IMG/VR virus record: IMGVR_UViG_3300022602_000236
Location: 1-37,438 of that record
Length of the DNA stretch: 37,438 nucleotides
Direction: 5' to 3' (one strand)
Source: a virus
The notes under the pieces were generated by a model. That model had not been told where the DNA came from, searched no databases, and was given only the letters and a program-made list of their open reading frames with translations. This document shows, in pieces, positions 1 to 22,669 of the stretch. Numbering within the stretch: position 1 is the first letter of the stretch; each line of letters begins with the position of its first letter. Both the position numbers and the translations under genes were made by a program.

Positions 1-3000
1 CCCCAAACTGTTCCCATACCATTCTCACCAACAACACCTGATTTTTGAGCAATTGCTAAAATCGTGTTATAGTTACCCATAACATTATTAACAATATCTG
101 GCAACTTAGTTGTATCAAACCAGTCATCTGTTGAAGGAGTAATATTAATATTACCCAAGAATGTGTAAACAGCAAAAGGATTGATGTTTTCCAACTCAGA
201 AGCAACAGGTTGTGTTATTAATGGAGTTGTTGTATATGGTAATGTAATAATATTACCAGTAATTTGATAATTAGATGCAGCTCGTTGAGAATTATTTGAA
301 TTCAACTCAATAAGTTTTACATTATTAACATTATAATATGGGCGAAGAATCCCGCTTTGTGTATCAATCGAACACAAGTAATCTGGATTTGTTGGATCCC
401 CAAGACCAAGTTGGCCAGAGAAATTGTCAACAGCAAAACCATTCTTGAAACGTGTCAATCCAGAACTATCAGTAGTCTGCATGGATTGAGTGGATTGTTC
501 AAGAGTTGATAGTGAAGTATAATATTCTAGATTAGAAATACGTGTATCTAATTTACCAATATCTGCCATAGTATATCTTCTTGTTGATATACTAGTTGGA
601 GTTACACTGCTTGCGTTAACAGAGAACACGTATGGCTCTAGAGCAAGAGTATACAATGACATTGAATTTGCAACATCAGCAGGAGCACCTGGAGTTAATG
701 AAGGTACACCTTGGATATCACTAAAATTACCATTAATATCAATTACAATTTTATCTGTTCTTGGTAGGTAGTAACTATAATCCGCAGTAAAATAAACACC
801 ACGTTTAGGAACTGGAGTATATGAAGAACCAGAACCATTAAAGTTTATTGCAGTGCCAGAAACATAATCAGCAACACGTGGTCTAAAGTCAATAGCATCG
901 CGTTGGTTAGCAGGGATATCGTTATACGCAATACCGCTGTAAGAGTTAACAGTAAAGTAATCACCCTGACCATGAGTAAAGTATTGGTATGTTACTTGAA
1001 TTGGAGCAGTTGGTACGTTATAAGATGGATTCAATACTAATGAAGCAAGATTATACATCTCTAATGTTTGACCATTATTTACTGTATAATTCTCAGAAAT
1101 GTCAGTAACGAACTGACTATTTGTTGGGGTAGTTCCCCATGCTTGACCATCAGCTTGTCGAATGCTAATCATTTTAAATAAATCAGCATTTGGCAGAGTT
1201 ATAAAAGATGCTTGGGCTTGAGACTGATTATTAATAACAACTGTTGTTGTTACAAGAGTTTTACTCTTTTCGTTACCAGTACCAGTTCTTGTCACACCAG
1301 CAACAACACTTACTACGTTACCAGAAACAGCTTGACCTGAAGTCAACCCAGATACAGTTAAACTTGTTCCTGAGATAGATACTTGATTTGCTGCTGGAGT
1401 AAATGTAAGACCAGTAGTTACGTTAGTGAAAACATAATTAGAAACACCAGCATATGATTCAAAAGTACCATTTGCTGTTGTGAATGTTACAGAAGTTCCA
1501 GCTGCGTTTGCAGTATATTGTTCGTAAACAGTATAGTTTACATTAATTGCGCCAGAAGCATTACGCACAGAGTTGATTGCGTAATACGGCATTGGGAACA
1601 ATAGAGAATTATTATTTGGTTCTAAAATTTGTGTAGTGCAACGACCAATAGAAACCCCAGAAACTGTTGTTCCAGCAGCGGCAAGTGTTATTGCTGTTTG
1701 GCTAGAAATGCTAGCAACTTTTGCTAATTGTTGCGAACCACCAGCATTGATAACAATTAAATCGCCAGCACTTAATTGAGTCTGGAATGATGTACCAACA
1801 CCTGTTAGTGATGTTCCTGAGACTGAAACTGAACCAGTAATTGTTGAAACTACTGGAGAAATATCTGCAGTAAATCCATTACTATAAACAAAAGATTTTA
1901 CGTTCTGATTGAATGTATAATTCCCAATCATTTGAACATTGAATAAACCTAATTTCCAAATAGTTGATGTATCAAATGGATCATCACCGCTGTGGAATTC
2001 AATAAAACGAACACGAGCAGTACCAACTAATGTTCCACCTGATGGAGCAGAACCAGGACTACCGCCAGTAATAGTATCATAAAGATTGATTGTCTGGTAA
2101 GGTGCATTCGATCCATTATTGATAGGCGGAAGATTATGTAGGTTATTAACAAGAACATAATTACCAACATCGTCTGGTCCTGGAATTACTGAGTTTGTTA
2201 ATTGTATTGTTGTTCTTGGTTTTGGAACTGTTAAGTAAGTAGTCCCAAGTTTAGTAAACTCATAACCCTGTACGAATGCTTTACCAGATTCCAAACCAAT
2301 TGCGAGATTATTTACACTACCAGTTTGATTAATACCATTATTGTACGTTGGGTCTGTGTTATACAACCAATTGATACCAGTATTTGCTGGACCGTCATAT
2401 GCAGTACCATTGGTTTGTGTTGGTGGTGTTGTTACTGAAGTTCCGCTATTTTGCGCAACGTAAGTATTACCATTGTAAGAAACAACATCATCAATCAAAT
2501 ATGCAGTATTAGATGTCCAAGCACCACGATTATTATTTCTATCTTCACGAACATCTAATAAGAATGGATTTACTGTATAATTTCCATCAGTGTCATAAAT
2601 CGCTTGAGCAATTGCAGCTGCTGGATCATTATAAGCAGTTGTATTTGTTAAAGTAAAAATAGCGCCATCAGTAACACGAATTAATTCTACGAATGATGGG
2701 TCTGTTGTATCAGAAAGATTATATGATACTAATGTTAACTCAATAAAATAACGATCAGCTCCAGGAGCAGCATAGTTATATGAGTTTTGCGCATTATCTA
2801 GAATAGAAGAATCGCTATTTGATGTTACAATAGATTCATTCCAGATCAAACCAATTTTCTTTGTTGGAGTATTATCGTATTTGTCTAGAATAATTGTTTG
2901 TGGTTCAACAAGACAGAAATATCCATTAAAGTAATAAACACCTTGTTGAATGCTTGCAGCTGAACCTAAACCAGTACCAGTAACAGAACTATCGTTTAAA

Positions 3001-3497
3001 GTTCCAACTACATTAAAAGAATACACATTATCAGAAGTATTAATTACTTCACCATCATTAAATACTGATGTGGTGTTATTAGTTCCAGAATTTGTGTAAT
3101 TAACATAAAGAGTAGCAGGATCTGAACCAGATGCATGCTCGATTTGAATTACAACTGCAGTTACACCTGTTGTTTGCCCAACAATAGTTTTACCTACCAA
3201 TGAAGATAAGAAAGTCTCAACTGCAATACCATTAGAATTTAATGATTGTAATTTAACATACTGGATTCCACCTCCAGGTTGTGTTGAAGTCTGAACAGAA
3301 ACCTGTCCAGGAATAACCATTGCGCCTTGTTTAAATACGTTATTACCAAATCTCTTAATTTGATTTTGCAGAATAGTCTGCATTTGAGTAAGTTCACGAG
3401 CCTGCACAGCATATGATGGCTTATAAAGAATACGATAGAATCGTTTATTCTCATCATAGTCGTCATTATATGGCTGGGTATTAAAATCTATTGTCAT
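1..3497 (-). CDS. DUF4815-like giant virion structural protein (C-terminus beyond window)
   Basis: The frame is open from an ATG at 3497 to the window edge, giving at least 1165 residues without a stop; the C-terminus is missing. The N-terminus (MTIDFNTQPYNDDYDENKRF, then RILYKPSYAVQARELTQMQT) matches the start of DUF4815-type structural proteins of T4-like cyanophages, which are large tail/baseplate components. Around residues 324-352 there is a W-x-x-x-x-x-Y...G..V.Y.G..Y.A pattern like CBM5/12 carbohydrate-binding modules. The remainder is Thr/Ser/Asn/Gly-rich beta-type sequence typical of fibres. It is last in the minus-strand baseplate operon, 33 bp after gp8. An AATAAATA late-promoter-like box lies just upstream. 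The family match is from memory of the motif, and the exact virion position is inferred. Confidence 0.8.
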   Translation of the reverse strand, partial: MTIDFNTQPYNDDYDENKRFYRILYKPSYAVQARELTQMQTILQNQIKRFGNNVFKQGAMVIPGQVSVQTSTQPGGGIQYVKLQSLNSNGIAVETFLSSLVGKTIVGQTTGVTAVVIQIEHASGSDPATLYVNYTNSGTNNTTSVFNDGEVINTSDNVYSFNVVGTLNDSSVTGTGLGSAASIQQGVYYFNGYFCLVEPQTIILDKYDNTPTKKIGLIWNESIVTSNSDSSILDNAQNSYNYAAPGADRYFIELTLVSYNLSDTTDPSFVELIRVTDGAIFTLTNTTAYNDPAAAIAQAIYDTDGNYTVNPFLLDVREDRNNNRGAWTSNTAYLIDDVVSYNGNTYVAQNSGTSVTTPPTQTNGTAYDGPANTGINWLYNTDPTYNNGINQTGSVNNLAIGLESGKAFVQGYEFTKLGTTYLTVPKPRTTIQLTNSVIPGPDDVGNYVLVNNLHNLPPINNGSNAPYQTINLYDTITGGSPGSAPSGGTLVGTARVRFIEFHSGDDPFDTSTIWKLGLFNVQMIGNYTFNQNVKSFVYSNGFTADISPVVSTITGSVSVSGTSLTGVGTSFQTQLSAGDLIVINAGGSQQLAKVASISSQTAITLAAAGTTVSGVSIGRCTTQILEPNNNSLLFPMPYYAINSVRNASGAINVNYTVYEQYTANAAGTSVTFTTANGTFESYAGVSNYVFTNVTTGLTFTPAANQVSISGTSLTVSGLTSGQAVSGNVVSVVAGVTRTGTGNEKSKTLVTTTVVINNQSQAQASFITLPNADLFKMISIRQADGQAWGTTPTNSQFVTDISENYTVNNGQTLEMYNLASLVLNPSYNVPTAPIQVTYQYFTHGQGDYFTVNSYSGIAYNDIPANQRDAIDFRPRVADYVSGTAINFNGSGSSYTPVPKRGVYFTADYSYYLPRTDKIVIDINGNFSDIQGVPSLTPGAPADVANSMSLYTLALEPYVFSVNASSVTPTSISTRRYTMADIGKLDTRISNLEYYTSLSTLEQSTQSMQTTDSSGLTRFKNGFAVDNFSGQLGLGDPTNPDYLCSIDTQSGILRPYYNVNNVKLIELNSNNSQRAASNYQITGNIITLPYTTTPLITQPVASELENINPFAVYTFLGNINITPSTDDWFDTTKLPDIVNNVMGNYNTILAIAQKSGVVGENGMGTVW

Positions 3498-3524: not shown

Positions 3525-3532
3525 TATTTATT
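3525..3532 (-). promoter_or_regulatory. T4-type late promoter-like box (AATAAATA) before the DUF4815 gene
   Basis: Read on the minus strand the box is AATAAATA, one base from the T4 late consensus TATAAATA. It overlaps the stop codon of gp8 and lies about 28 bp before the ATG at 3497, so it could start a separate late transcript for the large virion protein. The motif is short and the region AT-rich, so chance occurrence is possible. Confidence 0.4.
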
Positions 3533-6410
3533 AGAACTGTAGAATAGTTCTTAATGTTACTGTTTGGTTAGCAGTAGGAGTAAATCCTTCTCTATTATCA
3601 ATAAAAAACATATTACCAGAATATTTATCCACTGTTGGAGGTGTTACACCAGAAGCAGAGAATGTATTTCCTGCAGGATTTAAAAATGTGTCACCAATTT
3701 TAGGATAATAATTATCAACTGATTGTAAAAGCATACCAGTCGTTGTTATTGAAACAATAATAAATCTTGGTCCAGTTGAAGTACCAACAGTAATAACCAT
3801 ATCCTGTAAAAACTGAGATGTATTGAATAGTCCAGTTACAACATAACAGGCAGAAGCCAACTGTGAATTCAACAAAGTAGTATTACCAAATACACGTGGA
3901 TTAGCAATAATACCTAATTGACGATAATCGTTATTTACAGTAAATCCTTGGTTTTGATCTTGTGAAATATCAGTAAAGAACATTAATGTATTAGTAAACA
4001 TATTAGTCACTGGATCTTTACCATGGCCACCATATGGTGCCATAACAGCACGAGCAGTTGCTCCGAAACCAGTTCCACCAATACTTACATTTGCCCAGCG
4101 ATATCCAAGCCCATAACCATCAACTACAATTTTAGTAACAGCACCATTAACAACGATAGCATGAGCAGAAGCGCCAGTTCCATCACCAGTAATGGTTACT
4201 GGTGGATTTGAACCATATCCGAAACCACCAGAGATAACTGGATAAGCCATAATACGACCATCAGGTGTCAATAATTCAGTATTGGCTTGTAGTGTTGATA
4301 AATCTCCAGGACTTAAATTCGCTTGAAGGATAGCACCAGTTCCATCGCCAGTGACAGTAAGGTTAGCGTATGTGTAACCAATACCACTATCCAGAATATT
4401 AACACCAGTAATTTGACCATTTTGGATAACAGGAACAAGTTTTGCTTCAGATTTAGCAGCAACGAAATATGCAGCTGCGTTCTGACCTCCAGAAGTTGGA
4501 ACAATTGTTAAACTTGGAGCAGCTTGATAACCTGATCCATATTTAAGAACAGCTGTTGCTGTTGCTGGATATCCAACATATGTTAATTTAGCAGTACCAT
4601 CAGTAAATCCAATTTGAACAACACCAATTTTAGCAACTGCACCAAGAGTGTTATTTCCAGTATTATTAATTGTAATTGTAGGAGTTTTTACATATCCACT
4701 ACCAGCATTAGTAATATTAATAGCAGTAATTACGCCACCAGAAATTGTGGCTGTTGCTGTTGCTTGAGTACCACCAGAAACATCAGGAGCAGAAATAGAA
4801 ACAGTGGCTGAAATATATCCAGAACCACCAGAAGAGAGAGCAATACTTTGAATACTATTTGAAACTGCAGTAGGAGCAGTTGAACCAGTAGTTCCTGATT
4901 GAAGAACAGTGTATAATCTGTTCGAATAATAATATTGTGTACCAGTAGTTACTGCAGTAGAAGCAGTCCAAAGATTACCAAAAGTAACAGCTGGGACTAC
5001 TGGATAATTATATCCTTGATTAGTAATTTGAACAGAGGAAACTGATGTTCCACTCATTAAAGCTACACCAACAAAATCATCTTGGTCAGGACCACCACCG
5101 TAGTCTCCTTCTTCTCCACCATATAATGATCCATCATTAATATCTTGAATATTTACTGAAGGTGGAGCATTATAGCCATATCCGCCAGAAGTAAAGTTAA
5201 AATCGTAGATACTACCATTTAAAGTAATACTTGTAACAGAACCACCAGTTACGTTAACAATACCAGTTACAGTTGTTCCAACATACTCAAGAGCAGCAGT
5301 ACCATTCTGTACGATACCAGAAGTATGAGTAGGAGCAGGAGATGCTAAAATACCTGTTTGTGTTGCTAGATATTGATTAATACCGTATGTAATATATTGA
5401 CCAAGAAGAACTTGATTTCCTGCAACCCAAGCAGAAGCTGATGGGTAAGGTGGGGATGCTGATAGAGTAGCTCCACCTGTGTATCCAGTTCCTGGATTAG
5501 TAATAGTTGTATTAGTAATTAAAACAGGATCGCTTGCTCTATATCCATCACCATTTGATGTAATGTTAGCAAAGGTATAACCAGAACCACCAGATTGAAT
5601 GCCAATATTTAAAATTTGACCATTCTCAAAGAACTGATCAGTTAATGCATTAACAACTGGCATGTAAGCATCAGTAAGGAATTTGTTACGTAAAGCGATA
5701 GGAACGCTATACATATATTTCCACATATAACCATCAGGCATAATAACTGGGTCAACAACAGTACCAACTGGTTGATATGTTGACATCGCATTGTTATTAT
5801 TATCAAGGCATTTATAAACATTATAATCTGTTGTAATTACAACAGCATTAATATCTTCAACTCTTTGTGCACCTGAAGGTGCAATAGTAACAACTGCTGT
5901 AGCCACAGCACCTGCGCCACCACCACCAGTAATGGTTACTGTTGGAATAGAAGTATATCCTATTCCTCTGGCGGTAAGAGTAATTCCAACAATTTGTCCA
6001 CTAAGAACAGTTGCAGTGGCAGTTGCACCAGAACCACCACCACCAGTAATAGTAATTGTAGGAGCAGTTGTATATCCATAGCCACCTGAAATTAAATTTA
6101 AACCTTGGACTTCTGTACTATATTGAGTATCGTACATATCGTAAACTGTACCAGAAGTCCAGTTTACTCTAGGGATTACATATGAAACATCAGTTGAATT
6201 GATTTGTTTCATAGTAATAATTTGATCGCGAGTAGAAATTTCATAGTCAGCACTATCAACAGGAGCAGGAGGATTTGTTGGATCTGGCCAAGCCGAAGGT
6301 GGCAAAGCCTGTCCCAAGAAATAATAATAACGAGATGTGTTGTTCTGAATCTCCGTATACAATAATTTTGCTACGGAGTTGTGGATTTCAGATTTTAATA
6401 GTGCTGGCAT
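3531..6410 (-). CDS. gp8: Baseplate wedge protein gp8, greatly expanded by repeats
   Basis: At 959 residues it is nearly three times T4 gp8 (334). The gp8 pieces are recognisable: an N-terminal section with VIPRVNW (about residue 80), a middle section with VYKCLD and DGYMWKYMY (about 195-235), and a C-terminus (about 800-959) with the RQLGIIANPR segment and a final LRTILQF, comparable to the ILFTF end of T4 gp8. Between them (about 108-183 and 270-797) are repeats of the pattern SGGxGYxxxPxVTITGxGxGAxAxAxV, plus two W..G..Y..Y.G..Y segments (about 327-355 and 480-505) resembling CBM5/12 modules. gp8 joins gp6 and gp7 in baseplate wedges. A surface-exposed adhesive role for the insertions is inferred. 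Confidence 0.8.
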   Translation of the reverse strand: MPALLKSEIHNSVAKLLYTEIQNNTSRYYYFLGQALPPSAWPDPTNPPAPVDSADYEISTRDQIITMKQINSTDVSYVIPRVNWTSGTVYDMYDTQYSTEVQGLNLISGGYGYTTAPTITITGGGGSGATATATVLSGQIVGITLTARGIGYTSIPTVTITGGGGAGAVATAVVTIAPSGAQRVEDINAVVITTDYNVYKCLDNNNNAMSTYQPVGTVVDPVIMPDGYMWKYMYSVPIALRNKFLTDAYMPVVNALTDQFFENGQILNIGIQSGGSGYTFANITSNGDGYRASDPVLITNTTITNPGTGYTGGATLSASPPYPSASAWVAGNQVLLGQYITYGINQYLATQTGILASPAPTHTSGIVQNGTAALEYVGTTVTGIVNVTGGSVTSITLNGSIYDFNFTSGGYGYNAPPSVNIQDINDGSLYGGEEGDYGGGPDQDDFVGVALMSGTSVSSVQITNQGYNYPVVPAVTFGNLWTASTAVTTGTQYYYSNRLYTVLQSGTTGSTAPTAVSNSIQSIALSSGGSGYISATVSISAPDVSGGTQATATATISGGVITAINITNAGSGYVKTPTITINNTGNNTLGAVAKIGVVQIGFTDGTAKLTYVGYPATATAVLKYGSGYQAAPSLTIVPTSGGQNAAAYFVAAKSEAKLVPVIQNGQITGVNILDSGIGYTYANLTVTGDGTGAILQANLSPGDLSTLQANTELLTPDGRIMAYPVISGGFGYGSNPPVTITGDGTGASAHAIVVNGAVTKIVVDGYGLGYRWANVSIGGTGFGATARAVMAPYGGHGKDPVTNMFTNTLMFFTDISQDQNQGFTVNNDYRQLGIIANPRVFGNTTLLNSQLASACYVVTGLFNTSQFLQDMVITVGTSTGPRFIIVSITTTGMLLQSVDNYYPKIGDTFLNPAGNTFSASGVTPPTVDKYSGNMFFIDNREGFTPTANQTVTLRTILQF
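3990..6110 (-). repeat. Glycine/tyrosine-rich protein repeats inside gp8
   Basis: Imperfect tandem units encode the pattern GGxGYxxxPxVTITGxGGxGAxAxAxVxxG. Near-identical DNA copies are visible around 5915-5965 and 6015-6065, both containing the plus-strand run CCACCACCACCAGTAAT. More divergent units follow towards 4000. Repeats sit in two blocks separated by the conserved gp8 middle section, so they look like loop insertions into a folded core rather than a terminal extension. Confidence 0.8.
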
Positions 6411-6425
6411 TTAATCTACCTAAAA

Positions 6426-6887
6426 TTAACTTACTGTGATTGTCCAAGTAATAGCAACTGTATCGCCTGCAGCTTTGTTAACAATAGGGAAAGTTGTGTG
6501 GCAAAGCATTGTACCAGAAGAACTGTTATTAAAAATACCAGCTTCTTGTAGACCACCAGTACCAGTACCAGCTGGGAAAGATGCAGTATAAGTAATTGCA
6601 GTTGAGTTAACAGAGGCAGATGCCAATGCAACACGACCAGCTTCAGTTCCTAATGTTGTATCACCAACAGCTGGAGATGTTGAAGCAGTACCAACAGCCA
6701 TATATGACATCAATGGAACACCACCAGTACCACCAGCATCAACTAGCATACGTGAAGCAATCCATGCTTTACCAACAGTAACAACCAAGTTTTTTACTTG
6801 GCGTTCGTCTTTTTTATTACCTTGTTCATCAAAAACAACAATATTAACGTCGCCTTTAATTTTTAATCCATTTTCTTGTAGTTCCAT
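6426..6887 (-). CDS. Small virion (fibre/baseplate) protein, unassigned
   Basis: A 153-residue protein between the gp8 and gp7-position genes, with a good ribosome site (CAGGAGAA) 6-13 bp before the ATG. The N-terminal half carries an acidic/basic stretch (FDEQGNKKDERQVKNLVVTVG) leading into a Gly/Ala/Thr-rich beta-type region. The C-terminal half has LQEAGIFN followed by a TFPIVNKAAGDTVAITWTIT-like strand, a pattern common in small phage tail/fibre subunits with a jelly-roll-like fold. I do not recognise a T4 orthologue. Its place in the baseplate operon supports a virion role. Function is inferred from context. Confidence 0.7.
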   Translation of the reverse strand: MELQENGLKIKGDVNIVVFDEQGNKKDERQVKNLVVTVGKAWIASRMLVDAGGTGGVPLMSYMAVGTASTSPAVGDTTLGTEAGRVALASASVNSTAITYTASFPAGTGTGGLQEAGIFNNSSSGTMLCHTTFPIVNKAAGDTVAITWTITVS

Positions 6888-6901: not shown

Positions 6902-8803
6902 TTAATTACTCATTGATGTTGGAGATCCAACATAATAACCTGAGTCGTTTGTAAAATATCCTGCTATTGCGAATCCATTTAAGTCTATATATCCTGAACT
7001 TGCCAGTGATATACTAGAAGACGATTGGTTTGTTACATTAGTTGTATAAACTAATTGTGGGTTTGTTCTATTTAGGTTAGTTCCAGTTGTATCAGATAAA
7101 GATTGAGTTTCTGCCAATGCTTTACCAGTTGCTATTCTATTAACAGCATCTGTCATTGTTTGTGTATCTAAATTTAACTTACCAAATGTTTTATTAGTTA
7201 TTCCATCAGCCAATGATTGTGTGTCTGAGACTACTTTACCAGTATATTTGATTGCTAAATCAGATAATGATTGTGTATCATATAATGGTTTATTAGTAAG
7301 TATTCTAGTAAAATCAGCCAATCCCTGAGCATCAGTTAATGGTTTGGTTGTAAATAATTGAGCATATTCATGCATTACAACACTATCACTAAGATTCTCA
7401 TTAAGAATTTTAAGAATAGATTGTAATTGAACACTCAAACTAAATTTATTTTGTACATTATATTCACCAAACATCGCCATACCAGCTGGGTGAATTAAAT
7501 TCTTAACAGCTGTTTTGTATGTGTCTAATTTTTCATCAATCTGTATAACGTAAGAGAACGGTTGATAGTAACGACTATCTTCAATATAAATGGCATCATC
7601 CAAAAAACTTCCATTTGTCAACCAATATCCAGGATAAGAAGCAATTGAACCAAGATTAATTTGTAAAAGAGCAGATGTATATTCAGAAGTAGCAGCAGTA
7701 GCTTGAGCAGATGTTAATCCAAACTGAACAATAATTTGACCAGCATATGTTGGATCCCATTCCATAACAGAAGAATTTTGAGCATACTCATAATCAACTT
7801 GGTTGATAGTTCCACTTTCAGAAAATCCATTTGTAAACTCAGAAATACCAATATTGTATGTAGCAACATAAACACCAAGACCATTTAAAGATTCAGTAAC
7901 ACTTCTTGTTAACTGAACTCCAGTTGTTTGTGCAACTGCATTAGTGCCTGTTGTTGATGATATTGTTTGAGTAAAATTGGTTGTGTAATTTGTACCAAAC
8001 TGAATAAATTGCGCTTGAGATATACCACCATTAGAATCTACCGCTGAAACTTTTAATTGCGTACCAGTTCCATTGAAGTTTGTAATTGGATATACGTCAC
8101 CAACTTTAAATCCTGTTCCTGGTTCAAGAATTTGTAAAGAAGATGTTGTTGGTAGAATTGTACCAGAAAAACTTATACCAGCTTCTTTATTTTCATAACG
8201 AACTATATCTCCAATTTGAATATTACCAAAGAATCTTCTATCAATAAGATATTCATAAATTGTTGAGGAAATTTCAATGCCACGTTCTACTTCAACCTTT
8301 ACATTTTGTCTACCCTGAACTGTAACTTGAGTAATCTTATTATTTGAAATAATTTGAACGATTGCGCCAACGATATCGTCTGGATTTCCAGAATTAATTT
8401 GAACAAATAATGATGTATCTTGATTCCAAGTATTATCCGATGGACGCAATACTTGAGTGGATGGGTAAAATACACTTACTTGTTTACCATAAATTAATTC
8501 AAATAATAATTTTACAGCGGATTCAGTTCCCTTTGCATTATAAAGATCTTTAACACGCTTCATCAAGAAACGCTGATCTACTGAAGAATTTAATGGAAAT
8601 TTAGAAAGAAGTTCATCTCTGAAGTATACCAGAAATGAATCAAGGGTAGTATCAACATCTCTTAATGTGGTAATATCAAGCTGAGTTGTTTCAAGATAAT
8701 CATAATATGCTTGAAGAAAGGATACGAATGTTCCATACTCATTCCTTACAAATTCAGGAAGTTGTTGTGGGACTAGAGTTGATACTTTAGGTTTGGTAAT
8801 CAT
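6902..8803 (-). CDS. Baseplate wedge protein in the gp7 position
   Basis: A 633-residue protein, shorter than T4 gp7 (1032), directly downstream of gp6 with a 1-nt stop/start overlap and followed by gp8, the T4 order 6-7-8. The N-terminus (LPEFVRNEYGTFVSFLQAYY, then YLE, then FPLNSSVDQRFLMKRVKDLYNAKGT) is the conserved opening of large baseplate proteins of marine T4-like phages. The middle is beta-rich. The last ~110 residues hold five repeats built on a DTQSLSD-type core. Its identification as the gp7 equivalent rests mainly on gene order. It could alternatively be a distinct structural protein replacing gp7. Confidence 0.65.
   Translation of the reverse strand: MITKPKVSTLVPQQLPEFVRNEYGTFVSFLQAYYDYLETTQLDITTLRDVDTTLDSFLVYFRDELLSKFPLNSSVDQRFLMKRVKDLYNAKGTESAVKLLFELIYGKQVSVFYPSTQVLRPSDNTWNQDTSLFVQINSGNPDDIVGAIVQIISNNKITQVTVQGRQNVKVEVERGIEISSTIYEYLIDRRFFGNIQIGDIVRYENKEAGISFSGTILPTTSSLQILEPGTGFKVGDVYPITNFNGTGTQLKVSAVDSNGGISQAQFIQFGTNYTTNFTQTISSTTGTNAVAQTTGVQLTRSVTESLNGLGVYVATYNIGISEFTNGFSESGTINQVDYEYAQNSSVMEWDPTYAGQIIVQFGLTSAQATAATSEYTSALLQINLGSIASYPGYWLTNGSFLDDAIYIEDSRYYQPFSYVIQIDEKLDTYKTAVKNLIHPAGMAMFGEYNVQNKFSLSVQLQSILKILNENLSDSVVMHEYAQLFTTKPLTDAQGLADFTRILTNKPLYDTQSLSDLAIKYTGKVVSDTQSLADGITNKTFGKLNLDTQTMTDAVNRIATGKALAETQSLSDTTGTNLNRTNPQLVYTTNVTNQSSSSISLASSGYIDLNGFAIAGYFTNDSGYYVGSPTSMSN
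7080..7355 (-). repeat. Five short repeats at the C-terminus of the gp7-position protein
   Basis: Five units of about 18-19 residues follow one another: KPLTDAQGLAD, KPLYDTQSLSD, KVVSDTQSLAD, KLNLDTQTMTD and KALAETQSLSD, each followed by a 7-8 residue linker. The pattern K-x-x-x-(D/E)-(T/A)-Q-x-(L/M)-x-D is strict. Repeats of this kind occur at the tips or linkers of phage structural proteins. Here they lie just before a short C-terminal domain. Confidence 0.75.
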
Positions 8804-11052: not shown

Positions 11053-11352
11053 TTATTCTATGGTAAGTTTTGCAGAACCTGGACCAACTTTATCTCCATC
11101 TGCTATTGGATCATTTGTTCTTGCAACTGCTATACCTTCAAAATATGTTTTCGATGCGCCAGATGTTATTTCTCTCTGGGCATCTTGATGTATACCACCA
11201 CCAAATGGAGTATGAGATTCATATTCATCCCCAACCAATCCTATTAATAAACCATCAACATAGGATTTGGTGGCTTGGTTTTTATGTGTTAGTGGTGTAG
11301 ATGGACCATCTAATCCTTGAGACATATCACCTTTTCTAGCTACATTTCCCAT
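11053..11352 (-). CDS. PAAR-like tail spike tip protein (gp5.4-like)
   Basis: This 99-residue protein sits directly after the spike gene gp5 and before gp25. It has the glycine/proline-rich, short-strand character of PAAR proteins: MGNVARKGDMSQG at the start, HTPFGGGIHQDA in the middle and IADGDKVGPGSAKL at the end. Two histidines (around HTP and GIHQD) could bind the metal that sharpens the tip. In T4 the equivalent gp5.4 caps the gp5 beta-helix and is the first part to touch the outer membrane. Position and pattern agree, but I could not verify the metal ligands. Confidence 0.8.
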   Translation of the reverse strand: MGNVARKGDMSQGLDGPSTPLTHKNQATKSYVDGLLIGLVGDEYESHTPFGGGIHQDAQREITSGASKTYFEGIAVARTNDPIADGDKVGPGSAKLTIE

Positions 11353-14300
11353 TATACCTTCTGCGGAGGAGCAGCACCATCAGTAAGTAAAACAAACCCA
11401 TTTGGAATACCAGCAGAATTTCTTTGATAAACTTTATCGTTAGACATTGTAAAAGCCCATTTTAGATTACCTTTTTGTTTATATGACAAATGCATCCAAA
11501 CTTGATCTTTGTATCTATACTCTAATATAACTTGATTATAAGGAACTAATGCTTCAATCTTTTGAATCATATTATAAGTTGCATTATATCTGTCTGGTAA
11601 AAGTAATGCAACATCTGCTGCTTGTCCTTTACAGTGATCAGAGAATGGAGACTCTTGAGGTACAACACCCTTTAAACGATAACCAGATGTAATTGTCCAT
11701 TGTTTTCCATATCCACCAATTCCACCTGGAAGGACAGATAATGCTGGCTCCAAAACATTTTGGCAAAGAATAGCAAGGTTCGAAACGATTTCTTGAGTAG
11801 TATAAACTCTCAATGGACCACCTTTAACATCCTGTAATTCTTGATCTACTAATTTGTGTTTTCCTTGAATTCCACCATAAATTAACATCCCAAGAGTAAA
11901 ATTCGGAGATAATCTAAAATCGTTTGTAAAATTAGTAGTACTTTGTATCTTTGATGTATCAACAGCAACAATATTATTTGAACCGCCAGTCGTAGGTGTG
12001 TTCGCAGAAGTATCTACAGATGGAGTTGGTGGATTTGGAACACCATTAGTTTGCGCTTGGTTGTTTGCGAATGCTCTTCCCTGTGGTGTATCATAATCTT
12101 GTGGGGTTTCAGCTGCGGCATAATTTTCAACAACACGATCTGGTGGAGATAACTCAGGAACATCTGGATATAATGGCGCACCAGCAGTTGGTGCTGGTAA
12201 ATCAATAGATTCAACAGCGTTTGCTCCATTACCAAACTGACCAGTTGAGTAATCTGCGTATAGTGTGCCACCAGCAAGAATATTCATATCCTCGCCAGAA
12301 TTGATATTAACTCCAGATCCAGCCAACTGATTAATATTGGCAGCTTCAAGAGTAAAGTCTCCACCAGCTTTAATTTGAACTGTACCACCAACAGCTAAAG
12401 TAAAATCATTGGCAACACCAGCTGATAGATTATTACCAACTTGTAAAGTTGCATCACCCTCTACTTGAATATTCGCATCAGACTGTGCGTATATGTTTAC
12501 GTTACCAGCAACAGTTAAATTACAGTCGCCTTGTACGTGAACATAATTATTTCTAAGCATAATGGTATATGTTTCACCATTAATGAATGTAGTTTTTGAT
12601 CCATTTGGGTCAATTTCTTCATACGTTCCAGCACGATGGTAAGTATGAATACGTTCTTGACCAGGAGTATCATCAAATTCCTGAATATGACCAGATTCTG
12701 TTTCCATAACTTTATTATATGGATACTGAGCACCAAAAGCAGAAAGTGGTTGACTCCAAGTTCCACTACCCATTGGCAGAGGAATTCCTTGATCTCTTGC
12801 GCTATCTTTTAATTCAACAACAGTGCCTTTAATAATACCACGAGCAAGACGATTAGTGTCTGGTTCATTTACATAATCAGGAAGGGGATACTTATTATTT
12901 GGATCTCTGAAGCCAGTATTATCAGTTCCACGTTTAATACTTTCTTGTGATGGACCAGGAGTTACTGGGGCATTATCTGGTGGTGGAGTAGGAGCATCAG
13001 TACCTGCTGATTTTTGCACAGAACCAGTAACAGCTCCACCATAAAAGTATTCATAGTAAGATTGTTTTTTAGCAGAAATATCTGGAGAATTAACACCAAC
13101 TGCCTTCTTAGCAGCAAAGAAATATCCAGGATTATCTGTTGGGCTTACGCCTTTTGGTACACGATCTTTAATATAAAGAGCAGCGACTATTGCTGAAACA
13201 TTTAAATCATCATTAAGAGAATCAGGATTATTTAAAATGTCAATATTTAATCCAGCAGCCTTTGCTAGATCATTATATCGTTTGTAGTTACCACGACCAG
13301 TAAGTTGAATATATCCACGACCATAATATTTACCACCATCTTCATCAGTTAAATTACCAAGGAAACCTTTACCACGTCTTGTTGGTCCATAGATAACACT
13401 GAAAAATTGTTCTCTTGTTAATCCCTTTTTTTGCGCATCAGAATATTGTTGTGCGTCGGCATCTGATAAGAAAGAGAAAATTTGTTTTATTCTAGAAACT
13501 GAATAATTATATGATTCTAACTGAGGAATCCAAGTTGTTTCTCCACCAGCGATACCAAGTAAAGCACATTTCTGTTCTTTAGTTGTTAAACCAACAGCAT
13601 CGCAAGCAGCAATAAGTGCTTTAATACCCGCAGATGCTTTTGATTGATTTGTCGTAGATTTTGGTGGAGGAACAGTTGGTATTGAATCATTGACAGCACT
13701 AGAAGCAGGAGTCGCAGGAGTAGTTGGTGATGCAGCAGGAGGAGTAGTTGTAACAGGTTGTCCGTTACCAGATGTTACTGGATTACCAGAACTATCTGTT
13801 ACTACATTCGATGCTTTACTTTGATTAACAGCATCCAGATTAGTTGGTGCTGGTTTGAATGTAATAATGTTTTCGCCATACCCAGTAACTGCTTCGCTAA
13901 TTGTAATTTTAGTTCCACTATCAATACTAACAATTGTACAATTACTTGATAAACCATATCCAACAACAAACATATTTGCTGTAAGACCAGTGGTTAAATC
14001 TGTTCTTCCAGTTGGATCAGTAAATGTTAATTGTTTACCATCAGTTGGACCAACAATAGTTGTTAGTTGAATATCCGCAAGTTTGGCAGATGGGTTTACT
14101 GCAGATTCGCTATCATCATTTGATATAGCAGTAGGAATTTGTGGGATACCACCAACAGTACCAAGTATAACTGGTTGTTGCATATCATGATCAAGGAACA
14201 TTAAAACAACAGTAGTTCCTTCAACTGGACCAACAGGTGTATATCCAATACCATTCATAGCAGCAGAACCGATTGGTTGTACTGGTGTTGACCAAGGTAA

Positions 14301-14414
14301 ATCGTTTGTCGGTAACTGAGTCTTATCGTGAGTGTGCAGTCCTACGATTCGAACTTGACAACGACCAAGTTGTAATGGATCGGCTCTATTTTCAACTATT
14401 CCTGTATAAAACAT
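11352..14414 (-). CDS. gp5: Tail spike/hub protein gp5 with GH19 lysozyme and M15 peptidase domains
   Basis: This 1020-residue protein is much longer than T4 gp5 (575). Residues ~1-95 form the OB-fold (YTGIVENRADPLQLGRCQVR, later VVLMFLDHDMQQPVILG). A Pro/Thr/Ser-rich linker runs to ~255. Residues ~260-458 resemble GH19/chitinase-type lysozymes (GIAGGETTW, then KYYGRGYIQLTGRGNY) in place of the T4-lysozyme domain. Residues ~620-720 are the repetitive strand-turn beta-helix. Residues ~830-985 look like an M15/VanY-type D-Ala-D-Ala peptidase (TSGYR, SDHCKGQAADV with H-x-x-G-x-x-x-D, and WMHLSY). gp5 punctures the outer membrane and digests peptidoglycan. It overlaps gp27 by 1 nt (TAATG). Confidence 0.9.
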   Translation of the reverse strand: MFYTGIVENRADPLQLGRCQVRIVGLHTHDKTQLPTNDLPWSTPVQPIGSAAMNGIGYTPVGPVEGTTVVLMFLDHDMQQPVILGTVGGIPQIPTAISNDDSESAVNPSAKLADIQLTTIVGPTDGKQLTFTDPTGRTDLTTGLTANMFVVGYGLSSNCTIVSIDSGTKITISEAVTGYGENIITFKPAPTNLDAVNQSKASNVVTDSSGNPVTSGNGQPVTTTPPAASPTTPATPASSAVNDSIPTVPPPKSTTNQSKASAGIKALIAACDAVGLTTKEQKCALLGIAGGETTWIPQLESYNYSVSRIKQIFSFLSDADAQQYSDAQKKGLTREQFFSVIYGPTRRGKGFLGNLTDEDGGKYYGRGYIQLTGRGNYKRYNDLAKAAGLNIDILNNPDSLNDDLNVSAIVAALYIKDRVPKGVSPTDNPGYFFAAKKAVGVNSPDISAKKQSYYEYFYGGAVTGSVQKSAGTDAPTPPPDNAPVTPGPSQESIKRGTDNTGFRDPNNKYPLPDYVNEPDTNRLARGIIKGTVVELKDSARDQGIPLPMGSGTWSQPLSAFGAQYPYNKVMETESGHIQEFDDTPGQERIHTYHRAGTYEEIDPNGSKTTFINGETYTIMLRNNYVHVQGDCNLTVAGNVNIYAQSDANIQVEGDATLQVGNNLSAGVANDFTLAVGGTVQIKAGGDFTLEAANINQLAGSGVNINSGEDMNILAGGTLYADYSTGQFGNGANAVESIDLPAPTAGAPLYPDVPELSPPDRVVENYAAAETPQDYDTPQGRAFANNQAQTNGVPNPPTPSVDTSANTPTTGGSNNIVAVDTSKIQSTTNFTNDFRLSPNFTLGMLIYGGIQGKHKLVDQELQDVKGGPLRVYTTQEIVSNLAILCQNVLEPALSVLPGGIGGYGKQWTITSGYRLKGVVPQESPFSDHCKGQAADVALLLPDRYNATYNMIQKIEALVPYNQVILEYRYKDQVWMHLSYKQKGNLKWAFTMSNDKVYQRNSAGIPNGFVLLTDGAAPPQKV

Positions 14415-20971: not shown

Positions 20972-22669
20972 ATGGCAAAACCACAAATGAACGTCCACGT
21001 AAGTTCAAGCGATTTTAAAAATCTGCTTGCAGCACAACAACAATCATTGGGCGAATTATCTTCAATTAAAAAATTAATTGAGTTATCAAGAGATCATGAG
21101 AAACTACAAAAAGCAACTGGTGGGGCAGATAGTCAAAAGATTCAAGAGGAAATTCTTTCTCAGTTAAAAGAACAAACAAAGAATAGCAGAAAATATTACA
21201 AAACACAAGCAGAGTTTCAAGCTGAATGGGATAAAGAAGCCAAAGATATTGCTGACATGGTAAAGGGTATGAAGTCAGTTAAAACTCTTGGTGAAAAGTT
21301 CAAAGACAGCGTTTCTGGTGTTAAAGAAAAATATGGAATTGCCAATGGTGGTTTAAAACGAACTGTTCTTGGTGCAATGAATGTTGGTGGTATCTTTAAT
21401 AAAACTCTCGACAGAGATAAGTTTGTTGAACAACAAAAGGCACTTGGCGCAAAAGCAATGCCAAATGAATCTTCAGCAGATTTTAAGAAAAGACTCAAAG
21501 AAGATTATGAAGGTGCTCGTCAATCAAAAAATAAAATTACCGATAATGAGAAAGCCATACAAGCACACATGGCTAAAGCAGGAACCACTGATGAAGAATT
21601 CTTAAAGGGTGAAAGTCCTGAGTTTGCTGCATTGTTAGAAAAACGACAAGCACACACTGAAGAACTGGGTAAATATGATAGAAGCACAAGACAGTTTAGT
21701 CCTGACAAAAAGAATGCTGAACTGGCTGGTCTATTACCCCAGCAACAATTTCAACCTGCTGCTGGAATTTCCAACCCTGTTGCTGGTTTAGGAGCAACTG
21801 CAGCAAAAGCACCAAGCGCAACAGCTACTGCAGCTGAATCGTTGCAAGGTGCTGAGGCAGCAGAAGAAGGGCAACGCGAAGCTGAAAAAGAAACTGATCT
21901 TTTATCAAAGATTGAAGAAAATACTAGAGGTGGTGAAGGTAAAGATAAGGAAATTAAAGAAGAAAAGAAACCAGAAGGTGGTGGTTTACTTGATACAATT
22001 ATGAGTTTCTTGGGTAAAGGTTTAATTAATGCATTTAAATCTTTGTTTAATCCAGGAACTATACTTAAATCTCTTGGTAAAGTATTTGCCATCGGTATGA
22101 TTGTTGGTGCATTATTTGAAGGTATTATGGATGGTTTCGATGAGTTTATGAAAACAGGCGATATTGGTAAAGCACTTATAGCTGGGCTTGCTGGTATAGT
22201 TGATTTCTTAACCTTTGGATTGTTTGATAAAGATGCAATCAAAGATGTGATAGGTAATATTGGTGGTTGGATTAATGATCATTTAATCCAACCATATCTC
22301 GATATGTGGAAATGGATTGGTAAAAGTTTAATGTCAGTACTTGAAAGTATTGGTATACCTGAGATAACCTTACTTGATAATAAAATTACTGGTAAAGTTT
22401 CTGTTGGACCATGGTATCCATTTAAATCTGATGGTAGCGGAGAGGGCGATAAAAAACCTGAAGCAGCAACCCCACCACAAGAAGGTAATGTTGTTGAACA
22501 AAAATCTGCTGAGAATGCTGATGCTGCCGCAACACCTGCTGCAAACAATAATACTAGTGTGGTAAATGCACCAGTAACAACTAATAACACAACTACTCAA
22601 GTTATTAAATCACCAATACGTAACCAAGAATCTTCCGTAAGTAGTTACGTAGCAAAAAGATACGCATAA
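20972..22669 (+). CDS. gp29: Tail tape measure / baseplate hub protein gp29
   Basis: At 565 residues it is similar to T4 gp29 (590). The N-terminal ~240 residues are highly charged and helical (coiled-coil-like, rich in Lys/Glu/Gln). A Pro/Ala/Glu-rich linker follows (~255-330), then hydrophobic helices at about 335-430 including GKVFAIGMIVGALFEGIMDG and ALIAGLAGIVDFLTFGLF, as in tape measures that insert in the host membrane. The C-terminus is Ala/Asn/Thr-rich. gp29 sets tail length and is threaded into the tube. It is last in the plus-strand operon, right after the gp26/gp51 chaperone pair. Tape-measure identity rests on this architecture and context more than on sequence. Confidence 0.8.
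   Translation: MAKPQMNVHVSSSDFKNLLAAQQQSLGELSSIKKLIELSRDHEKLQKATGGADSQKIQEEILSQLKEQTKNSRKYYKTQAEFQAEWDKEAKDIADMVKGMKSVKTLGEKFKDSVSGVKEKYGIANGGLKRTVLGAMNVGGIFNKTLDRDKFVEQQKALGAKAMPNESSADFKKRLKEDYEGARQSKNKITDNEKAIQAHMAKAGTTDEEFLKGESPEFAALLEKRQAHTEELGKYDRSTRQFSPDKKNAELAGLLPQQQFQPAAGISNPVAGLGATAAKAPSATATAAESLQGAEAAEEGQREAEKETDLLSKIEENTRGGEGKDKEIKEEKKPEGGGLLDTIMSFLGKGLINAFKSLFNPGTILKSLGKVFAIGMIVGALFEGIMDGFDEFMKTGDIGKALIAGLAGIVDFLTFGLFDKDAIKDVIGNIGGWINDHLIQPYLDMWKWIGKSLMSVLESIGIPEITLLDNKITGKVSVGPWYPFKSDGSGEGDKKPEAATPPQEGNVVEQKSAENADAAATPAANNNTSVVNAPVTTNNTTTQVIKSPIRNQESSVSSYVAKRYA

Follow-up and report, generated by a model that had tools for sequence, protein, structure and literature searches.

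How does a conserved baseplate wedge protein come to be almost three times as long in a T4-like phage as it is in T4, and what might the added sequence do? This question is raised by IMG/VR virus record IMGVR_UViG_3300022602_000236, of which positions 1 to 37,438 (the whole stretch of DNA analyzed, called the window here) include a real open reading frame (ORF) at 3531-6410 on the minus strand, encoding a 959-amino-acid (aa) protein of the gp8 type. The answer that we favor, with a probability of about 0.6, is that this gp8 acts as a display scaffold for accessory adhesion to host glycans. The gp8 core, the modules added to it, their nesting, and their recurrence at several loops were observed here in the sequence and the predicted structure.

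The identity of the protein was established by its setting, by profile searches, and by structure. Genes for gp5-like lysozyme/spike, PAAR, gp25, gp6, and gp53-like proteins lie upstream on the same strand, as in a wedge operon, and PHROG_438 (baseplate wedge) matched the ORF with an E-value of 8.8e-82. The Pfam family of T4 gp8, PF09215, matched the gp8 of 19 of 20 relatives (best E-value, 1.1e-22), and its match to the window gp8 alone (E-value, 0.0036) did not pass the cut-off. A structure model was then built on 60 aligned relatives, with a mean predicted local distance difference test (pLDDT) score of 86 and a predicted template modeling (pTM) score of 0.59. Its best structural match was T4 gp8 (PDB 1n7z; Z score of 19.7, root mean square deviation [rmsd] of 3.2, 268 of 328 residues, model residues 1 to 959), and the gp8 of Lilla1 matched with a Z score of 18.1. 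The minimal homologues, A511 gp105 and the phi812 arm segment (6hhk, 9euf, and 9fko), matched over 170 to 172 residues with Z scores of 13 to 14. T4 gp8 (PF09215/PHROG_438) shares the core fold, the conserved motifs, and the gp25-gp6-(...)-gp8 gene order, but it has 334 aa, making the window protein 2.9 times as long.

Alignment with T4, HTVC008M, BUCT-ZZ01, and several metagenomic gp8 sequences placed the extra sequence at three sites, residues ~96-182, ~259-793, and ~846-924, none of which is filled in T4. Approximately 700 residues are inserted and approximately 260 make up the core. The gp8 core is thus intact, and the additions are insertions. An earlier reading of this DNA from its letters and ORFs alone (the sequence-only reading) had proposed a gp8 enlarged about threefold around a retained core, and both points held. 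It had also seen two insertions; the third, a beta-barrel, was missed, as was the splitting of the second carbohydrate-binding module (CBM) by a nested pair of GGxGY repeat units. The parts of the gene are as follows.

3531..6410 (-), enlarged gp8 (BW3TFN/gp8-type baseplate wedge protein), 959 aa; structural match to T4 gp8 1n7z, Z score as above
6126..6410 (-), gp8 core, N-terminal part, residues 1-95; alignments including T4 gp8
5865..6125 (-), insertion site 1, residues 96-182, a GGxGY pair predicted as a six-stranded barrel; not in T4, HTVC008M, or BUCT-ZZ01; pLDDT of 90 when folded alone; gp18 domain I match, Z score of 6.0
5637..5864 (-), gp8 core, middle part, residues 183-258, with the DGYMWKY motif of the family; alignment
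5457..5636 (-), start of insertion site 2, residues 259-318, GGxGY units at 275 and 307; weak profile match, independent E-value (iE) of 0.2
5262..5456 (-), CBM5/12-like module A, residues 319-383, within a GGxGY unit; iE of 5.9e-24; match to the Pam1 tailspike by sequence (E-value, 1.6e-4) and by fold (Z score, 10.3)
4995..5261 (-), GGxGY units at 410 and 466 (residues 384-472), with a low-confidence acidic loop at 426-442; model and profile
4857..4994 (-), CBM5/12-like module B, first part, residues 473-518 (module positions 3-48); profile
4605..4856 (-), GGxGY pair nested in module B, residues ~517-602; GGxGY-pair profile, iE of 3.4e-13; not in relatives with a continuous CBM
4554..4604 (-), CBM5/12-like module B, last part, residues 603-619 (module positions 51-67); profile
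4314..4553 (-), GGxGY pair, units at 625 and 676; iE of 4.6e-6
4041..4241 (-), GGxGY pair, units at 729 and 767; iE of 1.3e-10; region aligned in compact relatives too
3876..4031 (-), gp8 core, C-terminal part a, residues 794-845; alignment and structure match
3639..3875 (-), insertion site 3, residues 846-924, beta-barrel of the EF-Tu domain II type; structure match; T4 lacks it
3534..3638 (-), gp8 core, C-terminal part b, residues 925-959; alignment

The third site is occupied in compact relatives (451 to 525 aa) as well. The barrel there (855-925) matched EF-Tu-domain-like and F1-ATPase barrels with Z scores of 5.6 to 7, an aIF2-gamma domain and similar structures scoring 6 to 7; this arrangement of barrel is common, and no function was drawn from these matches.

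One inserted element is the GGxGY unit. The window gp8 contains 12 G-x-G-Y motifs, whereas 2000 shuffled versions of it had 0.84 on average and never more than 5. Glycine/tyrosine repeats had been proposed from the letters alone and are indeed present, but as 12 units scattered across residues 101-790 rather than as two blocks. Folded in isolation, the site 1 pair closed into a six-stranded barrel with three strands contributed by each unit (pTM score, 0.75). This argues against the beta-solenoid that had been suggested for the repeats, since the pair forms a barrel of its own and the repeats elsewhere are split by CBM modules. Four entries of gp18, the T4-type tail sheath protein, stood out among the structural matches of the isolated pair, covering a whole domain (residues ~99 to 187-190) with Z scores of 4.8 to 6.0 and 21 to 25% identity; the next match had a Z score of 2.4. 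In T4 gp18 this is domain I (residues 98-188), described as a beta-barrel of six strands that was likewise inserted in nested fashion and stands out from the tail (PMC3004832). The gap to the other matches suggests a resemblance between the predicted fold and domain I. Sequence comparison did not extend this to homology: hhalign gave the pair and domain I a probability of 0.6%, with a single sequence on the gp18 side, and a search with the GGxGY profile did not recover T4 gp18. The sole good E-value of that profile against the PDB fell on the BurrH repeats and was judged spurious, BurrH being a helical repeat protein and the score a sum of weak matches. Judged by strand pattern and profile matches, the other GGxGY pairs probably form the same barrel, and the GGxGY repeats that are widespread in phage virion proteins would thereby gain a likely fold.

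The likeness to gp18 bears on a different explanation, in which the insertions are mainly structural and serve to enlarge the wedge, pad neighboring subunits, or dock retracted fibers, with the CBM fold used for contacts with protein rather than sugar. Domain I of T4 gp18, the nearest structural match of the barrel, binds the baseplate and the retracted long tail fibers, and GGxGY barrels are also found in the gp53-like neighbor and in the structural protein that precedes gp8 in HTVC008M. That the residues of the canonical CBM5/12 second half were not recognized in the modules also speaks for protein contacts. We consider a mainly structural role rather unlikely, for reasons that lie in the modules and in the way they are distributed among relatives.

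The modules were delimited with a profile built from window module A and 23 modules of relatives, 24 in all. Module A (residues 319-383; iE, 5.9e-24) is favored by its inclusion in this profile; window module B was left out of it and was recovered in two pieces, residues 473-518 (iE, 1.2e-15; positions 3-48) and 603-619 (iE, 0.0078; positions 51-67). None of 200 shuffled proteins was matched by the profile, and the two CBM5/12-like segments of the sequence-only reading were thus borne out. Module B is interrupted by the GGxGY pair at 517-597 (iE, 3.4e-13) and is unbroken in relatives such as L005, L014, L027, and L029. Judging by the sequence and by the strands listed for the model, each of the two modules falls between GGxGY-unit strands. 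Because the modules lie within GGxGY units and module B is split by a further pair, the order of nesting in this clade is gp8 core, then GGxGY barrel, then CBM, then GGxGY barrel.

The closest known relative of the module is a region (residues ~491-549) in the receptor-binding domain of the cyanophage Pam1 tailspike (PDB 7eea), found by the module profile with an E-value of 1.2e-14. Module A superimposes on it with a Z score of 10.3 and an rmsd of 1.3, at 34% identity over 58 structurally aligned residues, and shares its W...PTHTSG...Y pattern; the Pam1 module, however, belongs to a tailspike and the window module to a wedge protein. Such a relative is hardly what a purely structural role of the insertions would lead one to expect. 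The CBMs of Vibrio chitin deacetylase and 4tx8 were structural matches with Z scores of 5.8 to 7, the chitin deacetylase CBMs matching at both module sites with Z scores of 6 to 7. By sequence, the module profile matched the chitin-binding domain of ChiA1 (E-value, 0.0013) in its first half only (ChiA1 positions 1-29) and that of ChiC with an E-value of 0.31. The canonical second half was not recognizable beyond domain position 29 of ChiA1. PF02839 was matched in 3 of 20 relatives (best E-value, 3.9e-6), and a Pfam scan of the isolated window segments gave no matches. Searches of phage records with single modules by tblastn found nothing, possibly owing to the BLAST low-complexity filter, and so give no evidence of absence. 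By predicted fold and by sequence, the inserted modules are of a sugar-binding type, CBM5/12.

The matches to chitinase and chitin deacetylase CBMs, together with the CBM5/12 fold and the presence of the same module in the gene downstream, would also suit modules that hold environmental or biofilm polysaccharide (mucilage, chitin, or capsule) and keep virions near their hosts, without recognition of a receptor. We regard this as unlikely: sugar specificity cannot be inferred from these matches, and a wedge position near the site of fiber attachment suits adsorption better than free-floating capture.

We then asked how the insertions are distributed among related phages. Two scans of IMG/VR and two isolates gave 90 distinct gp8-like ORFs, some of them cut by contig ends, with lengths of 451 to 1210 aa; large size is therefore not peculiar to the window phage. 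Insertions were mapped on an alignment of 73 gp8 sequences, and positions are given as window-equivalent residues.

117-127, further insertion, CBM modules; 4 sequences
369, further insertion, CBM; L123
394, further insertion, extra GGxGY or other segments; 16 sequences
424-445, further insertion
483, further insertion, second CBM; 8 sequences
505, insertion of ~278 aa, beta-propeller-like, SGL match with an E-value of 1.4e-8; L119
518-601, insertion, nested GGxGY pair; 13 sequences including the window
878, further insertion, CBM or other; 13 sequences

The propeller-bearing relative, L119:2330-5791, carries its ~278-aa insertion inside the second CBM module. In a tree built from the core columns, the most parsimonious history has 3 changes at 117-127, 6 at 394, 1 at 483, 2 at 518-601, and 5 at 878; such numbers vary with alignment and tree and should be read as no more than a guide. 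With that reservation, they suggest that grafts were gained or lost independently several times at several loops. CBM modules that come and go at many loops would hardly be permitted at a load-bearing interface, and this, along with the beta-propeller inserted at the same place in one relative, argues against the insertions being mainly structural. Different relatives fill such loops with a CBM, a barrel, or a propeller, and the simplest view is that the loops lie at the surface, exposed to solvent.

The nested insertions, the several recurrent gains or losses, and the wide range of lengths could also reflect neutral accretion, in which insertion-tolerant loops collect mobile domains that have no function. 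The inserted blocks were more variable than the core, but among near relatives the ratio of nonsynonymous to synonymous polymorphism (pN/pS) was below 1 in every one of them, and G, Y, W, and PTH positions are conserved. Neutral accretion is, therefore, very improbable; the insertions appear to evolve faster than the core under purifying selection. The diversity analysis that the sequence-only reading had called for thus found variable insertions with no sign of targeted diversification, and a diversity-generating or hypervariable block was rejected on the same pN/pS values. It is quite possible, and we put it forward tentatively, that the gp8 of these T4-like phages is an evolvable display platform, with a limited number of loops at which modules (barrels, CBMs, and even a beta-propeller) are exchanged and nested. 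Affinity for the host surface could then be tuned on a structural wedge protein while the fiber genes remain untouched.

For the window gp8 itself, we return to accessory adhesion to host glycans. The conserved core of ~260 residues would keep the usual work of gp8, dimerizing and joining the wedge core to the fiber network, as gp8/BW3TFN dimers do (PMC10811340). The six-stranded barrels, each made of two GGxGY units, would be rigid spacers in surface loops, and the CBM5/12-like modules would be displayed in loops of these units. With two modules per gp8, and 12 gp8 per virion if the stoichiometry of T4 holds, approximately 24 modules would surround the baseplate. We infer that they most likely make many weak, multivalent contacts with glycans on the host surface, which would aid a first, probably reversible, adsorption beside separate receptor-binding fibers. 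The sequence-only reading had the insertions likely projecting from the baseplate and perhaps binding host glycans reversibly; sugar-binding-type modules are present and the grafting at loops argues for solvent exposure. Exposure on the virion and glycan binding are probable. A role of this kind fits the precedent of Bacillus phage Vp4, in which a GFP fusion of gp119, a homologue of BW3/gp105 that has two CBMs, decorates host cells and the CBM-less homologue gp177 does not (PMC11406892).

The sequence-only reading had further proposed that the enlarged gp8 replaces separate short fibers, none of which it could identify. The window ends inside the next gene (3-3497), the genome being incomplete. 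In G001, an 84%-identical relative of 165,633 bases, the gene after gp8 is a DUF4815/phrog_358 gene of 2198 aa; further downstream come a gene with tail-fiber-family matches and one of 917 aa that combines an Mtd_N domain with short-tail-fiber-family matches. Neither G001 nor HTVC008M had a detectable T4 gp9/gp10 N-terminal or collar domain. In HTVC008M, whose gp8 is compact (462 aa), no PF07880 or PF07484 match and no recognizable gp12 were found, showing that absence of gp12 does not go with enlargement of gp8. Replacement of the short fibers (gp12) was rejected on both counts, fiber candidates being present beside an enlarged gp8 and gp12 being missing beside a compact one. Among the downstream tail genes of G001, a DctP-type extracellular solute-binding protein gene (L152:7219-8193; E-value, 1.2e-40) adjoins a radical SAM gene.

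Several points weigh against accessory glycan adhesion by gp8. The fiber candidates of G001 mean that binding by gp8 may be dispensable. A pTM score of 0.59 makes the orientations of domains in the model unreliable. Finally, only the first part of canonical CBM5/12 is matched, so chitin binding cannot be assumed and no ligand can be named.

Comparison with known systems places the window gp8 in a kind that is already known, a gp8/BW3-type wedge protein with CBMs, as in Vp4. The BW3TFN proteins (Listeria A511 gp105, the Staphylococcus phi812 arm segment, and Bacillus Vp4 gp119) have the same gp8-like core in the connector between wedge and fibers, and in Vp4 gp119, too, a pair of CBMs absent from its homologues has been added. 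Vp4 is, however, a herellevirus rather than a T4-like phage, and its CBMs, one CBM16-like and one of the xylanase type, flank the gp105-like domain, whereas those of the window are CBM5/12-like and nested in GGxGY barrels within core loops. Evolved Dit proteins of siphophages of lactic acid bacteria are conserved tail-tip proteins with CBM insertions for auxiliary saccharide binding; the core protein and the CBM families differ there from those of the window gp8, and the likeness is one of analogy only. Within the literature searched, what is new is the T4-like setting, a CBM5/12 type that a cyanophage tailspike also has, the mutual nesting of barrels and CBMs, and grafting that recurs at a restricted number of loops. 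The usual place to look for host range in T4-like phages is the fiber genes. Variable sugar-binding modules on a conserved wedge protein would add a layer of adsorption control in uncultured phages, and the gp8 modules are candidates for expression and testing. Trees of pelagimyophages use the conserved gp8 itself as a marker gene (PMC7029224).

Similar elements were seen in neighboring genes. The gp53-like wedge ORF (6902-8803, minus strand) encodes 633 aa, compared to 23.0 kDa for T4 gp53 in a published table, and has one GGxGY barrel by profile at residues 227-298 (E-value, 4.6e-6); the HTVC008M structural protein before gp8 gave two matches to the GGxGY profile. The next gene (3-3497, minus strand; DUF4815/phrog_358), cut by the end of the record, contains, at residues 320-373, a CBM module like those of gp8 (E-value, 5.3e-12) and a PF02839 match (E-value, 2.1e-5). 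In BUCT-ZZ01, a protein annotated as virulence associated also bears a CBM module of the gp8 type. The gp5-like hub protein (11352-14414, minus strand; 1020 aa) matched a GH19-type chitinase/lysozyme and, weakly, peptidase M15 close to its C terminus; judged from these matches, it possibly carries two cell wall hydrolase domains. Between the gp53-like gene and gp8 lies a 153-aa ORF (6426-6887, minus strand) that matched phrog_5417 and, more weakly, a tail-fiber family (E-value, 1.3e-8). On the opposite strand, a 565-aa ORF (20972-22669, plus strand) had a marginal match to a short PHROG only (E-value, 1.8e-4).
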